DNA from: an uncultured Oscillospiraceae bacterium
GTDB lineage: Bacteria; Bacillota; Clostridia; Oscillospirales; Oscillospiraceae
Length of the DNA stretch: 64,000 nucleotides
Reading direction: 5' to 3'
Assembly (NCBI GenBank): GCA_947626265.1
Contig: CANQRM010000009.1
Coordinates: 1 to 64,000 of the forward strand
The notes under the pieces were generated by a model that searched no databases, was not told the DNA's origin, and worked only from the letters and a program-made list of their open reading frames with translations. The translations under genes and the position numbers were made by a program. This document shows, in pieces, positions 43,268-58,043 of this stretch (its first letter is position 1; every line of letters starts with the position of its first letter).

Positions 43268-43765
43268 TTACGTATGATTGAACCGTGCCTCCACGGCAGC
43301 GTTCTTTTCCAGCACCTTCGCCCGGCCCTCGGCCCGGGCTATTTCCAGCTTGTCCGCGAGAGATTGATCCTCCAGCGCCAGTATCTGGACGGAAAGCAGC
43401 GCGGCGTTGACGGCCCCGTCTATCGCTACGGTGGCTACCGGGATGCCGGAGGGCATCTGCACCGTGGACAGAAGGGCGTCAACGCCGTCTAGGTTTTTGC
43501 TTTTCAGGGGAATGCCGATCACCGGCAGAGTGGTGTTGGCCGCAATGGCCCCGGCCAGGTGGGCCGCCATACCCGCGGCCGCGATGATCACCCCGAAGCC
43601 GCGGCTTCGGGCATTCAGGGCGAAGTCCCTCGCCTCCTCCGGCGTGCGGTGGGCGGAGAAGATGTGCACCTCGTGGGGCACGCCATATTCCGCCAGCTTG
43701 TCCGCCGCCTTTTCCGCCACGGGCAGGTCGCTGTCGCTGCCCATGATGATGGCCACTTTCTTCAT
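43268..43765 (-). CDS. purE: N5-carboxyaminoimidazole ribonucleotide mutase
   Basis: PurE supplies CAIR. The 165-residue protein has [16 protein letters not shown] and [14 protein letters not shown], the CO2/nucleotide-binding motifs. No purK is visible in the window, so it could be a class I mutase with PurK encoded elsewhere or work directly with CO2. It is the first gene of the purine operon, behind the ZTP-riboswitch-like leader, with AAAGGAG 8 nt before its ATG. Confidence 0.96.
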
Positions 43766-44073: not shown

Positions 44074-44982
44074 TTACTGACGGCGCTTTCCGCGGGCCAT
44101 GATGACCGCCAGCAGGCCGCCGCACAGAATGAGGGTCAGCGCCCAGGGCACGAACACGGTCTCGTCCCCCGTGGCGGGGGCCTGTGTGCCGGCCGCCGCC
44201 GGCTGCTGGGTGGCCGCGGGAACGGCGGTATCCGCGGCCCTGGTCATGGGCTCGGAGGTAACAGCGGGCGTCTCCGTGGGCGCTGCGGTCGCCGTGGGCT
44301 CGGTGGTGGGCTCCGGTGTGGCTGTCGGGATAGGGGTGGGCTCCGCCGTGGCGGTGGGCTCCGGCGCTCCGGAGCCGGTGCCGTCGTCATAGCCGTCGCC
44401 GATAATGCCCCCGGCGTTGTTGTCGGTAAATCCGCTGTCGGGCTGCCTTTCGGCAGGAGGCTGGTTCTCAGGCGGCGTCTCCGGCGGGACCTCCATCGGG
44501 TCGTCGGACTGGACCTCGGCGTCCCCCTCCTCTTCCTCGTCCACCACGTTGCGGATGATGGCCCGGGAGCCATAGACGTATATTAAAGAGTTCTCCGCCA
44601 GCGTCACCGTGCCGTCCGCTGGCGCGACCGTGCCAAGCGCGAGCGTGGTGAAGCCATCGGCCATCAGGGGAGACGCCCCGGCGATGTAGATCGTCACGCC
44701 ATCCGCTGTGCGGCTCACATGGGTCATCCGGCCGCCAGCCAGCGTCTCGTCAAAGACGAAGTCCGCGGCGCCTGTGAGCGTCAGCTGCAGGGAGCATATC
44801 CCCTCTCCGGCCATGCTGTCGGAGTGGAGCGTGACCACACCGCCGTCCACCGTTATATAGTCGACGCCGGGCGCGGACGAGGCGTTTGCCTCGCCCTCCG
44901 CCGCCAGCGTGTCGGTCACCGGCATCAGCATTACCGCTGCCAGGACCAAAACTGTCATGAACATATGAAGGATACGTTTCAT
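44074..44982 (-). CDS. Secreted cohesin-like protein with a sortase-type anchor
   Basis: A 302-residue surface protein. Residues 1-28 form a signal peptide (ending DTLAA). Residues about 38-140 form a beta-rich domain whose pattern (ICSLQLTLTGAADFVF, then VTIYIAGASPLMADGFTTLALG) resembles cohesin domains. An acidic stretch (DEEEEGDAEV) and a long Pro/Thr/Glu linker of TPEPT repeats follow. The C-terminus has APATGDE, a hydrophobic span and RGKRRQ, the layout of a sortase sorting signal with APATG in place of LPXTG. It lies 26 nt after a gene for a dockerin-bearing protease. I infer that it displays that protease on the cell wall; the cohesin call is by pattern only. Confidence 0.75.
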   Translation of the reverse strand: MKRILHMFMTVLVLAAVMLMPVTDTLAAEGEANASSAPGVDYITVDGGVVTLHSDSMAGEGICSLQLTLTGAADFVFDETLAGGRMTHVSRTADGVTIYIAGASPLMADGFTTLALGTVAPADGTVTLAENSLIYVYGSRAIIRNVVDEEEEGDAEVQSDDPMEVPPETPPENQPPAERQPDSGFTDNNAGGIIGDGYDDGTGSGAPEPTATAEPTPIPTATPEPTTEPTATAAPTETPAVTSEPMTRAADTAVPAATQQPAAAGTQAPATGDETVFVPWALTLILCGGLLAVIMARGKRRQ

Positions 44983-45008
44983 TTTTCTTTCCTCCTTCCT
45001 CTCCCGCC

Positions 45009-48000
45009 TCAGTCAGCGCCGCCAAGGGTGATGCTGCCCAAGTCTTTTGGCACGTCCACGAACAGCGAGTCGCTCACCAGCCGTTCGCCCTCGTTGGTCA
45101 TGGCGTCATTGACCCGGTAAAGCTCCACCCGGACCCGACCGGGCACCTTAAAGCCCTTTCCGATGTCCATCTCTTCCGGCTCGATCCACCAGACCCAGAC
45201 GCCGTCTGTCACGTCCTGTATCTTTCCGCTGTCGGGCACCTTGGAGAGAATGACCTGGTGAGATACACGTTCACCTGTCTGCGGGTCGACGCCGGTCACC
45301 ACCTCGCCGTTCTCATCATAGAGCATGACAACGTTATAGGCCGCGTTGCCCTTATAGCTGCCGGTGAACACCAGCGAATCCCTGGGGATGGACAGGTCCT
45401 GCTTTTCATCGTATGTGTATGCAGCCTCCAGATAGCCGACAGAGAGCTGGCCGCCGGCCGTATGCACGTCCACATTGTCGCCGGTGGGTCCCAACACGTC
45501 CAGCTCCGCCACGGAGACAGTCGTGTTCTCACTCATCAGCACCAGGCGGATGGCGTCCGCCGCGTAGGTGCTCACATAGCTTTGGTCGCCGTTGGAGAAG
45601 TAGATGATACCATCCCCGTTCAGCGTGCCGGCCGCCGCGTCTATCCACTGGCCGGCCTGACGGACGGCGATCTCGCAGTGGTCGAGGGCCGCGTTCGTAT
45701 ACCGCAGGGCCGTGACCACATGGGTATCGTGGAAGTCTATCTCAATGGCGCCGGCGCCGGCCATGCCGGCCGTGTATATGGTCTCCGCCTTGTTGTCGAT
45801 GGCATACAGGGCGGCATTTTCTTCCACGACCTCCGGGTCATCGGCGCTGACGCCGCCGCTGGTGATGGGGGCGGCCTCCAGGCCCGCGGTGCGGACGGTC
45901 CAGCTGTCCTTGCCCAGGTCGCCGCCGTGCTCCACCTTCACCATGGCGCCCTCCGCCACAGCGGAGCGGTTCAGGTATTTGTCCACCAGCGTGACCTCAT
46001 AGGACACAGTCCGGTTGTTCATAGCGGAGACCACGTCCGTAAAGCTGTTCGTGGTGGTGAAGCCCACGGTCCGGCGCTCGGTCACGCCCCGTTCGATGGT
46101 CCGGCGGACGATCTCATAACCCAGGATATCGCTCTCGGGAATAGCGCCGCTGGGCGTGACGGTGACCGTCACGCGGTTTCGCTGGATCTGGTCGGCCTGG
46201 ACGTCCACCGAGGCGATGGCCGCCGTGGTGCCGTCCGCCGCGAGCGCGCTGCCCGCGCCGTTCAGGGCGTAGAGACGGGCGTCGTCGTTGGCGTAATAGA
46301 TAGCTCTTGTCTCCGCCGGGAGCTGGCTGGCGTAGGCGATCGTCGCCTCGTCAGGTATCTTGCCCCAGCGCACGAAGAAGTCCAGAATGTTCTTCTCCGC
46401 CGCCGCGCAGGCCAGGCGCATCAGGGTCTGGTCGATGTCCGCCCCCTCCAGAGACAAGTTCCCGCCGGGCGCCTTGGAGGGCGTGCGGGCGTAGGTATCC
46501 ACCCGGGCCCAGAACAGGTTCGCCAGCTGCTCATTGTAGTCAGAATAGGTCCTGAAGTTATAGCCCTTATCATAGGCCAGGTGCAGCTGCCAGTACATGG
46601 CCAGCTGTGTGAACACGTTGGAGGCGCTGCCCTTCGCGCCGCTGGTGACCTTTGCGTAGACGTTGTTGTAGTCAAAGCGGACGCTGTCGTTGCTCTCTTT
46701 TGCCTGGGCCAGAACAGCGAAGTAGTTGTTGGTGATCTCGGCGATGGCGTAGGAGCCCTGGTTGATATCGTGGCCGATCTCATGGGCGACGCCCCAGCCG
46801 AAGTAGTTCCCGGACACATATTTGCCGTTTGCGTCGGCGGTGATGCCCACGCAATTGGCCATGCCCGCCGTCTCGGGCCACTCGATGCCGATGTGATCGC
46901 CGGAGGCGTACATGAACGCGCCGGAGAACATCCGCTGATAGCGGATATTCAGGTGCCGGAAGGGTATGCGGTCCACCGCGTCCCTGGCGGAGGCGTTCAG
47001 TCCCTTGTGCTGGTAGAACAGGTACATCATGCTCTCCATGGCGTTCAGGGAGTTCAGCAGCGTCCCGGCATTGCCGCCGCAGCCATTTATGACCTGCTTT
47101 GCGGGCAGGGACAGCATCATAGTGTCCAGCATGATGTCCGTGGCGCCCAGGATGCAGTTTCTCTCGCTGTATTCATAGTTGACCTCGGCGTTGGGCTCCT
47201 CCGCGGCCTGGTGGACCTGGGCGTGCAGGGACTCCATGCTGCCCACGTAGGCGTTCAGTTCGCCCACATAGGCGCTCACCCGCGCAGAGCGCTCGCCGGG
47301 GTCTGTTACCCCGTACAGGTCCAACACCGGCACCTGCACGCCGCCGCTGACCCGCACGGCATACTGCTCCCGGGAACCAGCCCCGCCCATATACTGCACG
47401 TATAGGGCTCCGCCGGACTCCATACCGGTATTGGTCCACACCTTGGGCACAATGATCTCATTGGCACCAATTTTAAGGTTGGAAGTGAGGATCTGGGACA
47501 GGGCGCTGGCCTCGGCGTGATACTGGGTGGCCACCAGCTTCAGCTGGGTGGCGTCGCCGGTCTTCTTGAGGCTGCTGGAGACATAGACCGTGATCTTCTC
47601 CCCCGCCGCCGCGGTGACGCCCAAGGGCTGCCAGGCGTTCAGACCGCCGAAGCCGTGCTCGTCGCCGCTGGCGGTGATGCCGGTATGGACATAGGTGACC
47701 TTCCGCAGGAACTGGTCGTTGAATATCTTCCAGGCAGTCTCCCACTCCTTCAGGAGCAGGTCCTTATCGGGGTTCACGTTGCCGAACTTGTCGACAGAAT
47801 TTTCGATGGCGGTCTTCAGGCTTTCCAGCTGCTCCTTCGTCACCGTGCTCTTCAGCGTGGTGTGCAGGTCGTCGTCATACATCCCGTAAAGCTGCCGTTT
47901 CAGGTCGTCGTAGTGATAGAAGTACACGTCCGCGACGTTGACACGGTTATTGCCGGCCCAGTAGCGGGCCACGCCGATCTGCACCTTCGTGGCGGTGATG

Positions 48001-50432
48001 GGAGAAGGCATGCGCAGGAAGAAATAGGTCCGGCCCTGGCTGTCCGTGCGGCGCTGGCTCGTCATGAAGGATTCGTCGTACAGGTGCTCGGCGCCGCTTT
48101 CATCCCACCAGCGGACCCGGCAATAGGTGTAATCCATGCTGGCGTCGGTGCTCACCATGCCGATGGTGTCCATCTCATAGGGCTGGTCAAAGGTGTAGAT
48201 AAGGCCCACGTTGGCGGGCAGGTTATAATAGCCGCCGTCGTTCCAGGTGCCCCGTTCATAGTAGGACCGGGGATCGCCGTCCACGGTGCCCCAGGCGGAG
48301 CCCGGAGCTGTGTCCAGGGGGCTGTCGAACATGTTGTCCCCGCCGCAGCCCAGGACCGCGGAGGTGATGTGGTTCGTGCCGGGCATGCCGCTCTCGTCGG
48401 CGTTGATGAGGTTAAAGCGGGGCATCTCCGCCGGGTCCAGAGTTATGGTCTTCGCGCTGGCGTGCAGGGACTCGCCGCTCTCGCCAAATTCGTTGACGCC
48501 GGTCACATAGACCTCATACTCCGTCTGGGCCGCACCGGCGAGGCCGGTGAACTCATATTTCGTCCCGGTGAGGCCCTCAAGCTTATGGTACTCCGTCTCC
48601 TCGGGGGTCTTATAGTAGAGGTTATAGGACTGGGTGTCCTTCATGTTCTTCCAGGTGACGGTGATCATCTGGTAGCCGCCCACGGCCTTCACGTTGTCCG
48701 GCTTGTCCGGCCTGCCGGTGGGCTTGGGGGTCACGGTGACGGCGGCGCTCATATCGCTCTTCCATTTGCCGTTGACGGACCGGACCGTGACCGTATAGGT
48801 CTTATAATTCTCTACCTCTTTGGCGCCGAGGTTGGTGCCTGTGCCGCCGAAGTTGGTGACAGTGAGGCTGGTGCCGGTGACCGTATAGGTGTCGGAGACA
48901 TCCCCGTTGGAGACGAACACCTCATAGCCGGTGATGTTCTCGCAGGGATTCCATTTCACGGTGAACTGCCGGCTGCCGGCCGCGGCGGTGACTCCCTGGG
49001 GTATGCTGGTCTGGGGCGCCGGGATGCGGCTTTCCATGCCGTTTACAAACTCCACCTGGCTGATGGAGGCCAGGCTCCCTCCGCCATTGGTACCGGTGAT
49101 GCGGATGGTGACCTTCTTCACGGCCACCTTTCCGTTCAGGTCCACAGTGATGTTTCCGCCGGCATCCATGCTCGCCTGGCCAGCCGCGATGGGCGCAGGC
49201 ATATCCATGCTGATGGCCGCGGCCGCCGCCACAGGCTCTGCGCTGCCGATGGCGTAGGAGGTAAGGGTCCCGTCCGCCAGTTCAACGTCGATATAGCCAG
49301 AGGCGATATTGGTCTTCTCCAGAGTGATCACATCCGCGGTGGCCGTACCGTCCTGCTGGGCCAGATCAAGGGTAAGCGAAACAGGGGCCTCCCGGGATAT
49401 GGGCTTATCCTCACTGTTGCCAATGGTGAATACGCTGCCGTTATCCAGGAACAGATCTTCCTTCGTTCCGGCGAAGACGTCTGCCGTCGCCTCCATGGCA
49501 AAGGCGGCCGCGGGGACGAAATGGGCGGGCGTAGACACCTTCATGGCGGGGTCCATCGCCGCGATGCGCTCGTTTTTCGCCAAAAACTCCGCGTCGGCCA
49601 GGTCTGTAGAGCCGTCGCCGTTCAGGTCGGTGTAACCGTTCCCTGCCTCGCCGGCTACGGCCTTCATCATCACATCCTTGTCGTTCTGGTCCACGTCGCC
49701 GTCGCCGTCCACATCGCCCAGCTGGATAAGGCCCGGATGCCTGTCGGGGCTATAGCCGGTCACCACACCCACCATAAGCTCCAGCAGCACGCCGTCTCCG
49801 GCGGCCAGTTCAACGCTCTGGGTATAGGTGGCGCAGCCCTGGCCGACGGCGGTCAGGGTATAGGTCCCGGCCGGCACGCCGGTGACGCTGCCAACCTCGC
49901 CGTCAGCCGTGACGGGCACGAGACCGAAGAAGGTGTCGCTCTCATTCTTAAGCGACACGGCAAAGGCGGGCGTCCATTCCCCCGTATCCACCGCCATGGT
50001 GATCTTCACATCCACCTGGCCCAGACCGGGCTGTGCCGCAGAGACCACCATAGGTATATCCTCCTCCGCCTCCGGGCTGGGGGAAGGCTCTGAGCTGGGA
50101 GAAGGCTCCGCCGTCTCCTCGGGCGTCACCGTATCCGACGCGCTGTCCTCCACAGCAGGCACATCCGTGGCCTCAGGCTCCGGCGTGACCGTCTCCTCCG
50201 GCGCAGGCTCCGGCACTGCCGTGGGCTCCGCCGTGGGGACAGGCGTTTCCACGACCGGGGGCTCCTCTGTCCCCGGCACCTCCCAGGTCATATCGTCAGA
50301 CGGCATGTCCTGGGGCATGTCCGGTTCCCAGACGCTCCCGTCGTCCGGCAGCATTCCATCCGCCGCCAGCGCCGGGACCGCCATGCCAAACGCCAAAACC
50401 AGCGTCAGGACCGCCGCGATCGTTCTCTTCAT
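45009..50432 (-). CDS. Secreted M60/enhancin-like metalloprotease with dockerin, Fn3 and discoidin-like domains
   Basis: A 1807-residue exported protein. The signal peptide is residues 1-23 (ending AVPALA). Then come a Pro/Glu/Thr linker (about 50-125), a carboxypeptidase-regulatory-like beta domain, and a type I dockerin (about 238-300) with two calcium loops, DVDGDGDVDQND and DLNGDGSTDLAD. Further on are two Fn3 domains (about 480-667) and a discoidin-like domain (about 680-840). The M60 peptidase region (about 934-1344) has HEIGH at 1217-1221 and Glu1232, the gluzincin HExxH...E zinc site. Fn3- and discoidin-like modules follow. M60 enzymes cleave mucin-type O-glycoproteins. The ATG at 50432 follows GGAGAGG. 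There is no wall anchor of its own; the downstream gene may supply one. Confidence 0.87.
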   Translation of the reverse strand: MKRTIAAVLTLVLAFGMAVPALAADGMLPDDGSVWEPDMPQDMPSDDMTWEVPGTEEPPVVETPVPTAEPTAVPEPAPEETVTPEPEATDVPAVEDSASDTVTPEETAEPSPSSEPSPSPEAEEDIPMVVSAAQPGLGQVDVKITMAVDTGEWTPAFAVSLKNESDTFFGLVPVTADGEVGSVTGVPAGTYTLTAVGQGCATYTQSVELAAGDGVLLELMVGVVTGYSPDRHPGLIQLGDVDGDGDVDQNDKDVMMKAVAGEAGNGYTDLNGDGSTDLADAEFLAKNERIAAMDPAMKVSTPAHFVPAAAFAMEATADVFAGTKEDLFLDNGSVFTIGNSEDKPISREAPVSLTLDLAQQDGTATADVITLEKTNIASGYIDVELADGTLTSYAIGSAEPVAAAAAISMDMPAPIAAGQASMDAGGNITVDLNGKVAVKKVTIRITGTNGGGSLASISQVEFVNGMESRIPAPQTSIPQGVTAAAGSRQFTVKWNPCENITGYEVFVSNGDVSDTYTVTGTSLTVTNFGGTGTNLGAKEVENYKTYTVTVRSVNGKWKSDMSAAVTVTPKPTGRPDKPDNVKAVGGYQMITVTWKNMKDTQSYNLYYKTPEETEYHKLEGLTGTKYEFTGLAGAAQTEYEVYVTGVNEFGESGESLHASAKTITLDPAEMPRFNLINADESGMPGTNHITSAVLGCGGDNMFDSPLDTAPGSAWGTVDGDPRSYYERGTWNDGGYYNLPANVGLIYTFDQPYEMDTIGMVSTDASMDYTYCRVRWWDESGAEHLYDESFMTSQRRTDSQGRTYFFLRMPSPITATKVQIGVARYWAGNNRVNVADVYFYHYDDLKRQLYGMYDDDLHTTLKSTVTKEQLESLKTAIENSVDKFGNVNPDKDLLLKEWETAWKIFNDQFLRKVTYVHTGITASGDEHGFGGLNAWQPLGVTAAAGEKITVYVSSSLKKTGDATQLKLVATQYHAEASALSQILTSNLKIGANEIIVPKVWTNTGMESGGALYVQYMGGAGSREQYAVRVSGGVQVPVLDLYGVTDPGERSARVSAYVGELNAYVGSMESLHAQVHQAAEEPNAEVNYEYSERNCILGATDIMLDTMMLSLPAKQVINGCGGNAGTLLNSLNAMESMMYLFYQHKGLNASARDAVDRIPFRHLNIRYQRMFSGAFMYASGDHIGIEWPETAGMANCVGITADANGKYVSGNYFGWGVAHEIGHDINQGSYAIAEITNNYFAVLAQAKESNDSVRFDYNNVYAKVTSGAKGSASNVFTQLAMYWQLHLAYDKGYNFRTYSDYNEQLANLFWARVDTYARTPSKAPGGNLSLEGADIDQTLMRLACAAAEKNILDFFVRWGKIPDEATIAYASQLPAETRAIYYANDDARLYALNGAGSALAADGTTAAIASVDVQADQIQRNRVTVTVTPSGAIPESDILGYEIVRRTIERGVTERRTVGFTTTNSFTDVVSAMNNRTVSYEVTLVDKYLNRSAVAEGAMVKVEHGGDLGKDSWTVRTAGLEAAPITSGGVSADDPEVVEENAALYAIDNKAETIYTAGMAGAGAIEIDFHDTHVVTALRYTNAALDHCEIAVRQAGQWIDAAAGTLNGDGIIYFSNGDQSYVSTYAADAIRLVLMSENTTVSVAELDVLGPTGDNVDVHTAGGQLSVGYLEAAYTYDEKQDLSIPRDSLVFTGSYKGNAAYNVVMLYDENGEVVTGVDPQTGERVSHQVILSKVPDSGKIQDVTDGVWVWWIEPEEMDIGKGFKVPGRVRVELYRVNDAMTNEGERLVSDSLFVDVPKDLGSITLGGAD

Positions 50433-50804: not shown

Positions 50805-53800
50805 ATGAGAAAGCAGCGGCGTCAGCGCGGCTTTACGCTGATCGAGCTACTGGCCACGGTGGCGATCACGGTGGTCTTCCTCGCCATTTCCATCCTCGCT
50901 GTCGGGTCCTACCGGAGCAGGTTGAAGATAACAGAGCTGGACAACGAAGCCCGCCAGATATATCTGGCCGCCCAGAACCGGGCCGTGCTCCTCCGCAGCC
51001 GCGGCGCACTGGAACCGCTGCTGAAAGATGGCGGCATGAGTCTCACCGCCGCCAAGGCCGGCGACAGCGCAAAGCTTTTCTATATAACGAACGCAGAGCC
51101 CGACAAAGCCGAGGCTCTTGACCAGCTCCTTCCTGCGGGGACCATCGACCCCTCTCTGCGGGAGGGGCAGTTCTATATCGTCTATGAGCCGGAAAGCGGC
51201 AGTGTTACGGACGCGTTTTATATGGAAGACGGCCAGCTGGATGAGGGTTTCCCCCTCTATTATGCGACCCACCCAGCCTCCGCGGACGAACGCCGGAAAG
51301 ATGACCCCATGGTGGGCTGGTACGGCGGCGATGCCGCCGTGTCCGGCGACGCCTCCGACCTGGAGGAGCCGTATATAAAGCCTATAGAGATCAAAAACGA
51401 GGACACCCTCCGGGCCGAGATCACCTGGATCGTCCCCGCTGAACTGGCTGAAAAAACGGGCGATATGCACCTTCAGGTCACTGTCTCCTATCCCGGTGCA
51501 GATGATATTGACGTCAAAGACCGCTTGCTCTTCACCCCAATCCCCATATCAGCCGCGGACGGCAGTCTGTCCTTTACGGAGGTATATCTTCTGGACAGCA
51601 TGGTGACCGACAAGCAGCTGCAGTTTAAGGACCTGTTCCCTGGCGTGACCAGCTTTGGCGGCAACTTCACCATCCGCGCCCAGATCGAGTATACCGGCGA
51701 GGGCTACATCCCCCACCCTGTCGAGACGGAGGCCAACAGTCTCTTTGCCGACGGCACAGACGAAACTACGGCCTATATCGAATACCTGCGCCATCTGCAG
51801 AACCTGGACCCTGCCTTCTCCGGTGTGAGCAGCAGCATCACCAAGGCCGTGCAGGTCAAGGACGTCGATAAGCCCTCCGAAGCCACCAAGTATATCCTCG
51901 ACGACGCCGATCGCGGTAAGTATGCCCCGCCCGCGATCCACAACTTCCAGCCCATCAGCAACTCTAACCTGACCTCCTACGACGGCCAGAAGCATGAGAT
52001 ACGCTGGCTGTATTCCCACCGCGACGGCAATGCCGGACTGTTCTCAGAGTTTATCGGACCGACCCCTGAAGCAAATGGACCGAGAAAAACGCTCACCGGC
52101 ATCCGCCTCATGAACGCGGACGTTGCCGGCGGTACATATGTGGGCGCGCTGTGCGGCAATGCCAGCGGCGTCGACATCGACGGCTGTCAGGTCTACTGGA
52201 AGGCGGAGAAAGCCGGCGCGGCCAATTTGCAGGACCTGCTGGGCGCGGCGGACGGCAAGACGTATGCCCTCAGTGATTATAAGATCACCGGCGGCACAGT
52301 GGGCGGTCTCATTGGCTATGCCAACAACGTCAAGATCACCAACAGCTCCGCCTCCACCACCGTGAGCGGCGCCACTGTGGGCGGCCTGGTCGGCCAAGGC
52401 GAAAGCCTCACCATCGAGAATTCCTATGCCGACTGCTACCTTGCGGGCAGCTCTGCCGCCGCCGGACTGGCGGGCGATCTGAATGGCACGAACACGCTCC
52501 AGAATGTCTATGCCGCCGGCTTCGTGTCCATGGGCGCCGATTCTTCCGCTGCCGGCCTCTATCTCGGATACAGCTGGGCGGCCGTGCGCAGCAGTTACAC
52601 CGTCATGGCCTACAGCTCCACCGACAACGTCTATCCCCTGGCCCAAACCGGCTGGTTTGGTTCCGACGTATGTTATCTGGGCCAATCTAAACCCGGCGAT
52701 TCCGCCTATTCCGGCAACGGCGCCGCTTTCACTTCTGCGGATAAGCTGAACGGTCTTTCCGGCTTCCACCCTGTCACCAGTACCTATGCTTACAACCTGC
52801 AGCCCGATGTGACTCTGGTCAACTATCCATATCCCGGGCTGGAGGGCCTGGACCATTACGGCGATTGGCAGCCCGCCGCCGTCAAAACGCAGGGCGGCAA
52901 GCTCGTCTATTGGGAGCTGTATGAGGACGGCACCATCGGCACATGGGGCAGCGATGGAAAATACCTGAGGGTAGATACCGACCCGCACGCGCTTGTGGTC
53001 TCCGACGGCTATGCCCTGCTGCTGGATGAAAGCGAGTTCGCAGACGGCCCGGTCACGGTCAAATATAAGCTGAATAATATCTATGATGAGAACGAGTACG
53101 AAGGACACTACAACAACGACGGCTTTATGCTCACCTGTACGGTCCGCGGGACGAAGTATTACCTGGCCGAATTGCCCGCAGAATGTCTCTATGTCAAAGG
53201 CATCTACGGCAATCGCCTCCGTAAGCTGTACGCGACCATAGACGCCGACACTCTTGCCTTCTCCTTTGATCCCCATTTTGCCAGAGAACCCATCGAGGGA
53301 GATGACGCGCCCCCCAGCGCCGGCACAGGATATATCCGCTCAGCCCGGCATCTTTATGACTTGAGCCAGTTTGCAGATTTTTACGGCGAACGCGACTTTA
53401 AGCAAGAACTGGATATCGATTACGCCGCCTATGTTCCCCGGGTAAATGGCATTTTTGGACCTATGCGCCCCAGCTACAATTTCATCAGCAACTATGACGG
53501 TCAGTACCACCATATTTGGAATGTTTCTTTCGATATGACCGCCAGCGGTGAAGCCGCAGGCCTGTTCGGCACTAACAACGGTACCATCAAGAACGTGCTC
53601 TTTGGCGGAGAGGACAGCGAACATGTTGTTGAGATCTCCGGCAGCGTCAAATATATGGGCGCTCTTGCGGGCCAAAGTAACGGAAAAGGAACCATCGAAA
53701 ATTCCAGCGTGAGCTATGTGTCGCTCAACAACACAAGCACCGGTGCCTCCTCTGTCGGCGGCCTTGTAGGTGCGAACTATGGACCCCTCGAAAACTGCAC

Positions 53801-56800
53801 CGTGGGCCATGCGTCGCTCACCAGCGCCAGCACCAGCGTCAACACCGATGAAAGCGTCTGTGTCGGCGGTCTGGCGGGTCAGAATACCGGCCCTGTCGAT
53901 AATTGCGCCGTAGGCTATGTATCACTAAAAAGCACCAGCATCATCTCCAATGCCTATGTCGGCGGTCTGGCAGGTCAGACCAGCGGAACGATCACCAACT
54001 GCTCTGCCTCCACAGACAGCATTACTGCTACCGACGGCAAGGCATGCGGTTTTGCGGGCGACTCCAGCGCTACTATCATAAACTGCTATGCGATCAGCCG
54101 TATCGACGCCGGAAGCGGCACGGCCGCAGGCTTTGCCGTGCAAAGCAACCTCAATATCTCTAACTCTTACGCGGCAGCCGATCTGACCGGCGGTACAGTG
54201 TATCCTTTCGCGCCCAACAGCGGCGATAACTGCTATTATCTGGACAAGGGCGAATATCTGAATGAGCCGTTCATCGCGCCTGAGGGCAGCGGCAGCGCCG
54301 AATCTAAAACCTTTGACGAACTGACCGACCGTGACGCTTCCCTGTTCGATCCCCTGACCGATCCGGAAGGTAACGTTTTCAGATTCCGCTTCCTGGACGA
54401 TGGGAGCGAGCACCGCCTGCCCGCCATCGTAAAGGACGCCAATGGAAATCTCTTCCACTATGGCAACACCGTGTTCGAAGCTCAGGATACATCGGTGGGC
54501 GTATATTACTGGGAGAATGAGGGCGGCAAATATCATTTCCGCGTCGTGGGCTACGATCCTGATTCCGGCAAATATTCCGAGCTCATCAATGACCTCTGCA
54601 CCGGGCACGACGACGGCGTCATCACCGACTACGGCTACGGCTGGTTCCAGTCGCCGGCATTGACCGGCTGGGAATTCAACTCTGAAGGCATCGCTTACAA
54701 TAATGAGACCAACTGGTATGAGGGCGGCCAGCTTGATGCGGTCAATAATGCATTGGCTGACCTTTTGGGCGCCTATACGTTCCACTCCTTCCCCACTGCC
54801 GGCAATGGCGGCGGTGACGGCCTGTGCCTTGACGGAAACAGCGTCGACGGCAGCGGCAAATGGACGATCGGCAAAGCCGTCTTTGAGATCGACCCCTTCT
54901 TCGCCAACGCCATCAACTATAACGTGACTGGCGATCCCTCCGGTCTTGGCACAGCCAAGCCTTACGAGATACGTTCTGTCCGGCAGCTGCAGTTCATCAA
55001 CTGGAACAGCGAAAGCCATGATTGCAGTTCCTGCGTCGACGCAAGCAGCAGCTCTGCATCTGCGTTCCCCTATCTGGGCAGGGACCTTTCGTTCCGGCAG
55101 ACCCACGATATAGATGGTCAGTCCGCCGTCTTCTTCCCCATCGCCGCCCTGCGGGATGCCTCCGGCAGCGGAAACCTGTCTGTCTCCGGCGTCTTCGGCG
55201 GCAGCTATGACGGGCAGAGCTATGTGATCAAAAACATCGACATCGGCGACATCGGCGAACAGGCGAACACCCTCGGCCTGTTCGGCGCTACCCTGGACGC
55301 AAAGCTGACGAATATCATCCTTTATTCCGAAAGCGGCAATAATTCGCTGACGGTCAAAAATGAGCATACCTCCAGCGGCTGGTATTATGCCGGCGGTCTG
55401 GTGGGCCTGGCGATGCAGACGCGGGACGGCGGCGGCATAACGAACTGCGCCGCGGCGGGTTTCACCATCAGCGATGAGACAAAGAACTTTGGCCGGTATG
55501 GCGGCAGCATCGGCGGTCTTGTGGGCGCCGCCAACGTGCAGATAAGCAAGTGCACCGCCGTCAATGATATAAATATCAATTATCAACGCACCAGCATAGA
55601 CCCCATCGGCGTGCGCGCCGGCGGCCTGGCCGGCGCCTGCGAAAGCAGCATCACCTCCTGTTACTCCGGCGGCTCGATCAAGGTCGACCCGAGATGCAGC
55701 GCCAGCAACAATATTGACGCCCGACCCACCAGCCTTTATATCGGCCGCATAGCCGGCGGCATCGATATAAAGGTCAATACGGACCCCTCACTTTACAGCC
55801 GCTATACCTTTATTAGTACCAAGAATTTAGACGTCAGAAACAGCTACAGCTATGCTTCTCTGCCCGCCCAGCTGCTTTCCTTGGACGGACAGTGCTGTCG
55901 CGAGCTTTATAATATCGCCGGCAACGCGGAGCTCGATCCTGCCGGATATGACGCATCGTTTGATATCCACACAAACAGTGTCATCGCTGAAAACTGCCAT
56001 TATTATGATAAGGACTATCCCGCCGGGGAATATGTTGTCCCCCATGATACTGACTGCACCTCCGGACAGCAAATACAAAAGCAAACTTATACCCAGCTGT
56101 CCAACAGCGTATCTCTTGGCAGCGACTTTGGGAAGATCAACGATCAAAATAACAGTCACAGCCCCGTTAGCGAAGACAGGTATAGGGCATATCCCTTCCC
56201 CGCTGTTCTGAAAAGAGGCGGTGAATTTGTCCATTATGGAAAGCTGCCTGTGGAAAAGCTGGCCAGCGCCAGCGCCGTTATGACCGTCGACCTGTTCGCG
56301 GACTATGACGCCGCGAGCGGCGCCGCCTATCAGGACAATCTTATCTGGCCCTCTCAGGATCAGGTATCCCGCATGCCGGGCGGCCAGTTCCGCTCCGAAC
56401 TGACCCAGGTGGTGAACGCAGAGGGCGACGAAAACGCCGAGCCGGTATGCGAGGCGGCGTTCGCGGACGAGAGCGAGACTTTCCCCTCCCCGAAGGCCGG
56501 CCAGCGCATCCTGCGGGTGACCTTCCTTCGTCCCGGCGACGCCACGGTGACGGTGTTCTACGGCCAGCCCGGTGCGGACATCGGTGACTGCGTGGCCCTC
56601 ACCATCCCTGTGACCGACACTGCCGAGCTGCACCTGCAGCCCGCGGATACGGCCGCGCCCAACGGCAGTCTGGATGACAAGGTTGCAGCTTACAGTCTCG
56701 CCGCCGGGAGCGTGACCGCCTTCACCGGGGCCGACACGAAGCTGGAGCTCTACCCCTTCGATAAGAACAACGAACCCATCGCCCCGGAGCTGGAGGAAAA

Positions 56801-58043
56801 GCTCACCGTGAATGTGACCGGCTTTGGCGGCGACGGCGTGTCCCTGATCTCCGCCGCTCCCGTTGAGGACCTGACGCCCGACGCCGAGGACGCCCCCGCC
56901 GCCATTATGCTGGACGGCGCTGCGGCCACATACGGTGTCCAAACCATGACGGTGGACTACAGCTACACCATCGAGGGTATTGACGGCGGCCTCACCGGCA
57001 GGGACGACATCCGCTGTGAAGTAAAGGACCTGACCGTAGAGTCTGAGCCTATCATCTTTGTGCTCCGGGATGGCGCTTTTGCCCCCGGCTCGGTGACCTA
57101 TGGCGCGGAGGACATCCGCTTCACCGTCGACGGCGTAGACGTTGCCGTGGAGGACCTGCGCATCACCAATGCCGTCAGCCCCTCCGGTACCGTTGCCTTC
57201 ACCCTCCATGAGGACGGGACCGTGACGGCTGTGCCGGGCGCTGTGAGCGTGTCCTATGCCCAGGAGCAGACCCAGCTGGACCTGACCTTCACCTACGGCC
57301 CGGCCCGCCACAGCGTCACCATCAGCCCCATGGCCTGCCTCTATGAGGACGGCATGACCCTTCGTCTGGAAGGCGGCGATATGGACGGCGACGGCAGCGT
57401 TGACCTCTATGCCGGCCAGAGCGCGGCCGTGGCCGCCCTGCCGGATGAGTTCTTCGACATTGGACCCACCGCTGAGATGACCGATATGCCGGATATGGCC
57501 GCGGCTGTCTCCGACGCGCCGGATGCGCTGTCCATAGCGCCTGCGGCACCGGAAGATGACACGGCTCCGGAGGATGTGCCCACGCCCGGCGTCGGAACGC
57601 CTGTGCGCGTGGCGGAGTATCTGGATAAGGACTGGACCGTGCAGTGGTCCCTGGAGGGCGCTGCCGCGTCCTGCGTGAGCCTCGCTCCTGACGGCGGGAC
57701 CGCGTGGCTGGCAGTAAAAACTATGCCTGAGATGGACATGACCGAGGGCACGCTTACCGTGACTGTGACCCTTCCTGAGCCCTGGCTGGGCGTGACGTTC
57801 ACCGGCAGCGTCCCCGTTCACATTATCCATGAGAACGCCCCCTCCCCCACACCGGAGCCCACTCCCACGCCTGTCCCGGAGGCGGAGCCTGTGCCCGAAA
57901 ACACAGCGCCGCCCGTTCAGGACGTCACTCCCGCGCCGCCTGTCCAGGAACCGGAATGGCAGCCGGAATGGGAACCCGAGCCGGTGCCGGACGCGCCGGA
58001 TATGCCGGACTTCCTCCCGGAAGAAGAGTTTATTCCTTATTAA
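50805..58043 (+). CDS. Giant type IV prepilin-like protein with GLUG-type repeats
   Basis: A 2412-residue protein that starts as a class III prepilin: a short basic leader MRKQRRQRG, cleavage after Gly9, then FTLIELLATVAITVVFLAISI with Glu at +5. The alpha1 helix is followed by more than 2300 residues, where ordinary pilins have about 150. Clusters of GLUG-like repeats (GGLVGQ, GGLAGQ, GGLVGA followed by I.NS/NC.A) lie at about residues 440-590, 915-1135 and 1460-1690 and suggest beta-helical adhesin folds. Immunoglobulin-like or Ca-binding-like segments follow, then a Pro/Glu-rich tail (2345-2412) with no anchor. It is first in the pilus operon and is probably a tip or minor-pilin adhesin. 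GGAGG precedes the ATG. Confidence 0.85.
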   Translation: MRKQRRQRGFTLIELLATVAITVVFLAISILAVGSYRSRLKITELDNEARQIYLAAQNRAVLLRSRGALEPLLKDGGMSLTAAKAGDSAKLFYITNAEPDKAEALDQLLPAGTIDPSLREGQFYIVYEPESGSVTDAFYMEDGQLDEGFPLYYATHPASADERRKDDPMVGWYGGDAAVSGDASDLEEPYIKPIEIKNEDTLRAEITWIVPAELAEKTGDMHLQVTVSYPGADDIDVKDRLLFTPIPISAADGSLSFTEVYLLDSMVTDKQLQFKDLFPGVTSFGGNFTIRAQIEYTGEGYIPHPVETEANSLFADGTDETTAYIEYLRHLQNLDPAFSGVSSSITKAVQVKDVDKPSEATKYILDDADRGKYAPPAIHNFQPISNSNLTSYDGQKHEIRWLYSHRDGNAGLFSEFIGPTPEANGPRKTLTGIRLMNADVAGGTYVGALCGNASGVDIDGCQVYWKAEKAGAANLQDLLGAADGKTYALSDYKITGGTVGGLIGYANNVKITNSSASTTVSGATVGGLVGQGESLTIENSYADCYLAGSSAAAGLAGDLNGTNTLQNVYAAGFVSMGADSSAAGLYLGYSWAAVRSSYTVMAYSSTDNVYPLAQTGWFGSDVCYLGQSKPGDSAYSGNGAAFTSADKLNGLSGFHPVTSTYAYNLQPDVTLVNYPYPGLEGLDHYGDWQPAAVKTQGGKLVYWELYEDGTIGTWGSDGKYLRVDTDPHALVVSDGYALLLDESEFADGPVTVKYKLNNIYDENEYEGHYNNDGFMLTCTVRGTKYYLAELPAECLYVKGIYGNRLRKLYATIDADTLAFSFDPHFAREPIEGDDAPPSAGTGYIRSARHLYDLSQFADFYGERDFKQELDIDYAAYVPRVNGIFGPMRPSYNFISNYDGQYHHIWNVSFDMTASGEAAGLFGTNNGTIKNVLFGGEDSEHVVEISGSVKYMGALAGQSNGKGTIENSSVSYVSLNNTSTGASSVGGLVGANYGPLENCTVGHASLTSASTSVNTDESVCVGGLAGQNTGPVDNCAVGYVSLKSTSIISNAYVGGLAGQTSGTITNCSASTDSITATDGKACGFAGDSSATIINCYAISRIDAGSGTAAGFAVQSNLNISNSYAAADLTGGTVYPFAPNSGDNCYYLDKGEYLNEPFIAPEGSGSAESKTFDELTDRDASLFDPLTDPEGNVFRFRFLDDGSEHRLPAIVKDANGNLFHYGNTVFEAQDTSVGVYYWENEGGKYHFRVVGYDPDSGKYSELINDLCTGHDDGVITDYGYGWFQSPALTGWEFNSEGIAYNNETNWYEGGQLDAVNNALADLLGAYTFHSFPTAGNGGGDGLCLDGNSVDGSGKWTIGKAVFEIDPFFANAINYNVTGDPSGLGTAKPYEIRSVRQLQFINWNSESHDCSSCVDASSSSASAFPYLGRDLSFRQTHDIDGQSAVFFPIAALRDASGSGNLSVSGVFGGSYDGQSYVIKNIDIGDIGEQANTLGLFGATLDAKLTNIILYSESGNNSLTVKNEHTSSGWYYAGGLVGLAMQTRDGGGITNCAAAGFTISDETKNFGRYGGSIGGLVGAANVQISKCTAVNDININYQRTSIDPIGVRAGGLAGACESSITSCYSGGSIKVDPRCSASNNIDARPTSLYIGRIAGGIDIKVNTDPSLYSRYTFISTKNLDVRNSYSYASLPAQLLSLDGQCCRELYNIAGNAELDPAGYDASFDIHTNSVIAENCHYYDKDYPAGEYVVPHDTDCTSGQQIQKQTYTQLSNSVSLGSDFGKINDQNNSHSPVSEDRYRAYPFPAVLKRGGEFVHYGKLPVEKLASASAVMTVDLFADYDAASGAAYQDNLIWPSQDQVSRMPGGQFRSELTQVVNAEGDENAEPVCEAAFADESETFPSPKAGQRILRVTFLRPGDATVTVFYGQPGADIGDCVALTIPVTDTAELHLQPADTAAPNGSLDDKVAAYSLAAGSVTAFTGADTKLELYPFDKNNEPIAPELEEKLTVNVTGFGGDGVSLISAAPVEDLTPDAEDAPAAIMLDGAAATYGVQTMTVDYSYTIEGIDGGLTGRDDIRCEVKDLTVESEPIIFVLRDGAFAPGSVTYGAEDIRFTVDGVDVAVEDLRITNAVSPSGTVAFTLHEDGTVTAVPGAVSVSYAQEQTQLDLTFTYGPARHSVTISPMACLYEDGMTLRLEGGDMDGDGSVDLYAGQSAAVAALPDEFFDIGPTAEMTDMPDMAAAVSDAPDALSIAPAAPEDDTAPEDVPTPGVGTPVRVAEYLDKDWTVQWSLEGAAASCVSLAPDGGTAWLAVKTMPEMDMTEGTLTVTVTLPEPWLGVTFTGSVPVHIIHENAPSPTPEPTPTPVPEAEPVPENTAPPVQDVTPAPPVQEPEWQPEWEPEPVPDAPDMPDFLPEEEFIPY

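Follow-up and report, generated by a model that had tools for sequence, protein, structure and literature searches.

A dockerin-bearing M60 protease and its anchored neighbour: a candidate one-enzyme surface-display unit in an uncultured Oscillospiraceae bacterium

We analyzed a stretch of 64,000 nucleotides (nt) from an uncultured Oscillospiraceae bacterium (GCA_947626265.1, contig CANQRM010000009.1, positions 1 to 64,000 of the forward strand; hereafter, the window), in which a gene for an exported Peptidase M60 protease with a type I dockerin is followed by a gene for a small protein, here termed the partner, with a sorting tail. The two genes probably constitute a one-enzyme surface-display unit, in which a divergent cohesin-like domain of the partner would bind the dockerin of the protease, and the M60 domain would cut host glycoprotein. 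Surface display by the neighbor is the best reading because the pairing of the two genes is conserved and the type of anchor varies; this gene pairing is stronger evidence for display than the predicted fold of the partner domain. With less assurance, we favor the broader view that the partner domains form a new, fast-diverging cohesin-like family that serves the dockerins of M60 proteases in five or more families of a single order, which we take to be the Oscillospirales, as a minimal display system of one enzyme and one anchor, with the anchor differing by lineage.

The protease and partner genes in the window

The features of the two genes, all on the minus strand, are as follows.

45009..50432 (45012-50432 without the stop codon), minus strand: M60 protease gene, 1807 amino acids (aa); exported, without a wall anchor
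49767..50030, minus strand: X-module-like beta domain, aa 135-222, directly before the dockerin (weak Pfam match, conservation, strands predicted by AlphaFold2, AF2)
49575..49721, minus strand: type I dockerin with two calcium loops (Pfam and loop motifs; AF2 helices at low confidence)
48732..49004, minus strand: fn3, the better of two stretches (Pfam)
46362..47039, minus strand: Peptidase M60 domain (Pfam match; PDB relatives)
46737..46784, minus strand: HEIGHX(10)E zinc-site motif, HEIGHDINQGSYAIAE, protease aa 1217-1232
44077-44982, minus strand: small, predicted wall-anchored partner gene, 302 aa, adjoining the protease gene 26 nt downstream of it
44533..44862, minus strand: predicted cohesin-like beta domain, approximately aa 41-150 (AF2 model, Foldseek, alignments A1 and A8)
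44077..44178, minus strand: sorting tail with PATGD, a hydrophobic stretch and a basic end (tail motif; sortases in the genome)

The initial annotation had described the two genes at this spacing, an exported protease with a double calcium loop and an M60 HEIGH...E site but no wall anchor, and a partner with a signal peptide, a linker and a sorting tail; the searches bore out each of these features. The protease start was placed at the second ATG, at 50432 (MKRTIAAVL...), 17 codons inside the mechanically called open reading frame (ORF), and this N-terminus reads by eye as a signal peptide; no hydrophobic tail was seen at the C-terminus. Pfam identified Peptidase M60 (PF13402) at E 8.6e-11 (42.3 bits; curated cut-off 25.8) and fn3 at E 8.5e-13. 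The HEIGHX(10)E motif satisfies HEXXHX(8,28)E, by which M60 is defined in the consulted part of PMC3267712. The nearest solved relatives in a PDB sequence search were M60 proteins named F5/8 type C domain protein, ZmpC, and ZmpA glycopeptidase. As judged from its family, the M60 domain is probably mucin-cutting.

Scanned as an isolated region, the dockerin matched Dockerin_1 (PF00404) at E 3.7e-5 and 24.3 bits, over the cut-off of 22.9, and it reached 24.1 bits in a search of its own genome, where it was the sole PF00404 match at E <= 1; over the whole protease the score fell below the cut-off (E 0.0019, 18.8 bits). Both calcium loops are intact, loop 1 being DVDGDGDVDQND (aa 240-251) and loop 2 DLNGDGSTDLAD (aa 269-280). 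AF2 predicted two helices for this region, at a low predicted local distance difference test (pLDDT) score of 44-55 by blocks. For the preceding beta domain, AF2 predicted seven strands (10-residue blocks at pLDDT 65-89), and Pfam gave a match to CarboxypepD_reg at 0.0027, under the cut-off. This module recalls the X-module of X-module-dockerins, a likeness of position, strands and the weak Pfam match.

The partner begins with a signal peptide and continues through a beta domain of approximately 110 aa and a linker to the sorting tail, PATGDETVFVPWALTLILCGGLLAVIMARGKRRQ, in which P-A-T-G-D stands in place of the textbook LPXTG. The protein matched no Pfam family at E <= 1, and searches of Pfam, NCBIfam and PDB sequences with the protein or its alignments gave no usable match. 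The genome of origin (3.2 Mb, 77 contigs) contains 14 sortase matches (PF04203), 12 of which form six pairs in close tandem, on contigs C4, C10, C19, C28, C31 and C38.

Conservation of the gene pair in the genus

Within the set of relatives, M60 was found in 22 of 35 genomes of the genus. A search with the genus alignment of the partner domain (A1) located this domain once in each of those 22 genomes and nowhere in the 13 other genus genomes or the remaining 64 genomes of the set (Fisher p 7e-10 for co-occurrence in the genus, relatedness ignored). The pair is thus more than a chance association, being present in every genus genome with M60. In all 22 cases the partner is the next gene downstream of M60; the P-x-T-[GA]-D tail was one of the criteria by which the partner ORF was chosen, and the separate domain search landed on the same ORF. 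The P-x-T-[GA]-D motif with a hydrophobic stretch and a basic end was present in 22/22 partners versus 0/22 proteases. Stretches resembling FIVAR were recognized by a simple pattern in 13/22 genus partners (for example, L033 9001-10104) and are absent from the window copy.

Dockerin_1 matched segments of all 22 genus proteases at E <= 1, and a script recovered loop 1 in 21/22 and loop 2 in 19/22, with L042 being a miss of the script. A beta module just upstream of the dockerin is common to all 22 proteases and is approximately as conserved as the dockerin in the genus. In the window and in L032-L034, a purE motif occurs close to the pair; for 18 of 21 relatives, none was found in the stretches fetched, some of which were short. 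The two genes thus seem to stay joined in changing surroundings. The genus profile had no match in 390 other genomes of the class, a search that was insensitive because some of these genomes carry distant relatives that were later found by gene order.

The pair across the order and the exchange of the anchor

The initial annotation had called such a use of cohesin-dockerin display unusual; the arrangement is not a one-off, having turned up again in five or more families of the sampled order. A first example, L153, which was fetched for its M60, has a dockerin-bearing M60 gene followed by a gene with a signal peptide, a similar domain and SLH repeats. The order sample comprised 394 genomes, with M60 in 29, own genome included, and the survey read 30 M60 genes outside the window, in 29 regions. 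Dockerins were detected with a hidden Markov model (HMM) of alignment A2, and partners with an HMM of the order-wide alignment A8 from which the locus's own row had been removed. A dockerin was detected in 23 of the 30 M60 ORFs. The partner stood alongside 20 of these by HMM, including L218, where the M60 frame is split, and alongside a 21st (L204) by BLASTP at 39 percent identity. The partner was therefore found beside 21/23 dockerin-bearing M60 genes versus 1/7 without a detected dockerin (Fisher p 3e-4, relatedness ignored). The seven latter genes are two in L152 and one each in L200, L216, L217, L219 and L220; the stretch fetched for L217 showed no HEXXH motif, and L219 and L220 have short M60 ORFs of 408 and 385 aa. 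L152 (3913-13167, minus strand) and L216 (3775-8304, plus strand), from another genus of the order, represent a second M60 type of approximately 1450-1510 aa, with no dockerin or partner detected.

The dockerin lies near the N-terminus in each dockerin-bearing M60 examined in the genus and the order sample, and the initial description of this placement as uncommon is not upheld for these proteases.

In the reverse search of the 394 genomes, the partner domain was found 25 times. All 23 strong matches (E <= 1.5e-15) lie beside an M60 gene, in 12 genera and five families; 21 of them had given rows to the profile, and two (G143 and G288) had not. The two weak matches were L126, a Pfam cohesin, and G115:C22, which was set aside, being absent from the PF00963 matches and not reading as a cohesin.

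An SLH anchor was present in 18 of 24 partner sequences scanned, counting the end of L211. Among the others, L212 has a QTGD tail, L213 and L214 have membrane tails, and L207 is cut at the contig end. The anchor type is swapped among sortase tail, SLH repeats and membrane tail while the domain and the dockerin stay.

Predicted fold of the partner domain

The initial annotation had proposed that the small domain is cohesin-like, to be checked by structure prediction and profile comparison; the predicted fold supported this, but the Pfam and profile tests did not. An AF2 model of the window domain, built from four sequences, reached pLDDT 80.3 and a predicted template modeling (TM) score of 0.73, and pLDDT dropped below 50 over the final 14 residues of the construct. 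In a Foldseek search against the PDB, cohesins took ranks 1-4 and 20 of the 50 listed rows, with weak scores (E >= 0.035, TM <= 0.48); cohesins were counted by title, and for complexes we assumed the cohesin to be chain A or C. These rows include archaeal, cellulosomal, ScaE (2zf9) and Clostridium perfringens (2jh2) cohesins at TM 0.28-0.48, the C. perfringens cohesin-like module 2jh2 having the highest TM among the listed cohesin rows (0.48). At approximately 110 residues, the window domain is shorter than the listed cohesin chains (approximately 130-210).

The order-wide profile matched one Pfam cohesin, L126 (row 26 of alignment A5), at 18.8 bits and in cohesin register, and the other 25 of 26 Pfam cohesins scored no better than shuffled cohesins. 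By its sequence, then, the partner domain is not a cohesin; by its predicted fold it is probably cohesin-like, which is a resemblance and not proof.

Parallel dockerin and cohesin gene pairs in the genus

Eight ORFs with a Pfam cohesin were examined in the genus. In five of these cases (two in L145, and one each in L146, L149 and L150), the immediately preceding gene on the same strand codes for a protein that ends in a dockerin, as Pfam confirmed for all five. As for the remaining cohesin ORFs, L147 is cut by a contig edge, and two in L148 stand in tandem with no dockerin gene directly upstream. Some cohesin matches are weak: that of L150 gave 0.002 and 0.011 in two scans, and that of L149 was once over the cut-off and once under it (1.1e-4). 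A TGD-type tail is present on four of the five downstream cohesin proteins and absent on L145 15317-16249. In L151, a sixth dockerin gene precedes the gene of an anchored protein, the first domain of which is left unnamed by Pfam. The proteins of these pairs have no Pfam enzyme domain over the cut-off, and two have LRR. The pairs are located at L145 2202-4948 and 13651-16249, L146 1006-3799, L149 5184-8599, L150 6593-10011, and L151 4401-9251. These results suggest that the genus has a habit of two-gene surface display. The genome of origin has no PF00963 cohesin at E <= 0.1.

Weighing of the evidence

Several observations weigh against docking of the protease on a cohesin-like partner. None of the 22 genus partner domains, and none of 33 members in a second test, matched PF00963 at E <= 1. 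Aligned by hhalign with an alignment of 26 Pfam-recognized cohesins, the genus alignment A1 reached a probability of 0.9 percent and the order-wide A8 16.6 percent. In profile comparison, A8 gave 18.7 against cohesins (21.6 with query and target swapped) and 20.0 against the X-module/dockerin alignment; the cohesin score of A8 exceeds that of column shuffles (0/100 reach it), a signal that we discount, as the X-module/dockerin alignment scores about as high. Every listed Foldseek match had E > 0.03 and TM < 0.5, and CBM2, YcnI, chitinase and integrin entries were also listed. On the dockerin side, a PF00404 genome search at E <= 0.001 misses the dockerin in two of the 22 genus genomes (G019 and G027), and the second calcium loops of L032 and L033 are degenerate. 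As to pairing, L200 has a partner without a detected dockerin, in a locus whose M60 frame is broken, and L211 and L215 are dockerin-bearing M60 genes without a clear partner. The neighbor in L215 has a weakly similar domain and no visible anchor. L211 (26-6766, plus strand) encodes an M60 protein of 2247 aa with a dockerin and its own C-terminal SLH repeats, perhaps a fusion of the protease and partner genes, the intervening domain being too weak to call. The counts are not independent, owing to relatedness, and close congeners were kept in the HMM when one locus at a time was left out. Finally, distance-matrix coupling between the partner domain and the dockerin (partial r 0.26) is lower than that with another part of the protease (0.40); this mirror-tree test is uninformative, as the coupling does not single out the dockerin.

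One alternative, which we judge unlikely, is a partner that anchors the protease through another of its parts (X-module, fn3 or C-terminus), with the small domain being a new beta-sandwich adaptor and the dockerin having another role or partner. The sequence link to cohesins through one intermediate at most, the lack of dockerin specificity in the mirror-tree test, and an X-module-like domain conserved about as well as the dockerin agree with such an adaptor. However, M60 genes without a detected dockerin mostly have no partner (0/6 without the broken L200, 1/7 with it), cohesins head the fold search, and the genus has parallel dockerin/cohesin gene pairs. We consider it still less likely than the adaptor, indeed improbable, that the partner is an independent, co-transcribed surface protein, such as a binder of mucin or glycans, and that the dockerin docks to another cohesin. 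Co-occurrence by itself is no proof of contact, and the FIVAR-like stretches of 13/22 partners could bind glycans; on the other hand, what recurs in the partner is its N-terminal domain together with an anchor of some kind, and there is no other obvious dock for the dockerin because the genome of origin has no Pfam cohesin.

A separate doubt concerns the substrate. The display unit may be real while its M60 domain has a substrate other than mucin, either a different glycoprotein or a protein of a bacterial surface, which we judge possible though doubtful; this possibility is independent of the other two, and its odds are not to be added to theirs. The best PDB relatives of the protease are M60 glycopeptidases, and the exact glycan needs of such enzymes differ, but mammalian mucins are substrates of one M60 protein, from Bacteroides thetaiotaomicron, as described in the consulted part of PMC3267712.

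Under the preferred reading of display by docking, the protease would be secreted without an anchor, as read from its sequence, and the partner would be secreted and fixed to the wall by sortase, as suggested by its tail and the sortases present. The N-terminal domain of the partner, with a divergent cohesin-like fold, would bind the dockerin in a calcium-dependent manner, and the X-module-like domain before the dockerin may brace this contact. The M60 domain would cut host glycoprotein, probably a mucin O-glycopeptide, at the cell surface.

Transcription context

The 26-nt gap between the two genes contains AGGAAGGAGG. On the minus strand, neither this gap nor the region before the protease gene showed a promoter-like site. 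One terminator-like feature follows the pair.

44058-44035, minus strand: terminator-like hairpin after the partner gene, 10 GC pairs

The terminator scan overall gave 5 sites versus 5.7 in shuffles, which is no excess. Near the pair, the ORF at 43268-43765 is presumably purE-like. A divergently transcribed gene at 50805-58043 (plus strand) encodes a protein of 2412 aa, unusually large for a pilin-like protein, with the N-terminus GFTLIELLATVAI, which we take to be type IV prepilin-like, followed by what are presumably many GLUG-like repeats.

Comparison with known systems

If the display reading is true, it would explain how an anchorless protease may stay at the cell. Cohesin-dockerin assembly would then extend from plant-fiber and multi-enzyme mucin systems to the tethering of a single protease, and cohesin-dockerin pairs would have a role as two-gene tethers dedicated to proteases that act on the host. 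Given a cohesin-like family invisible to the Pfam model, current counts of such systems may be too low. The small pairs (approximately 110 and 70 residues) could be used for studying how cohesin-dockerin recognition diverges.

A survey of M60 from 2012 includes Dockerin type 1 in its domain table, with counts of 2 and 2, and mucin cleavage by the B. thetaiotaomicron M60 protein depends on metal and the catalytic glutamate (both from the consulted part of PMC3267712). No report of an M60 protease with a dedicated anchor or cohesin gene was found among the titles and abstract openings listed from the open-licence literature. The window protease shares its catalytic domain with the ZmpA/ZmpC-type M60 glycopeptidases; the comparison covers that domain. 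In addition, the window protease carries an X-module-dockerin at its N-terminus and has its anchor encoded by a gene of its own.

ScaE of Ruminococcus flavefaciens carries a single cohesin. The ScaE/CttA X-module-dockerin system likewise joins a sortase-anchored cohesin to a dockerin placed after a beta-rich X-module, and in X-module-dockerins the X-module strengthens the cohesin contact (PMC4266597, consulted part). ScaE serves a large cellulosome, whereas the window unit would consist of one protease and its own neighbor, with a cohesin unrecognizable by sequence. Cellulosomes and mucinolysomes are marked by a multi-cohesin scaffoldin and many dockerin enzymes; the genome of origin has one dockerin and no Pfam cohesin.

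The Limousia mucinolysome (cSca5) resembles the window in its gut bacterial setting, mucin, dockerin-bearing peptidases, and an LPxTG-anchored protein with an N-terminal cohesin (PMC12997984, consulted part). It comprises many enzymes and several scaffoldins, in contrast to the two-gene, one-enzyme unit proposed here, and the term M60 is absent from the main text of that paper. As in our reading of the window, the glycoside hydrolases of C. perfringens have cohesin-dockerin pairs outside cellulosomes; according to the same part of PMC12997984, all five C. perfringens cohesins are on glycoside hydrolases, whereas in the window the cohesin-like domain is on the wall anchor.

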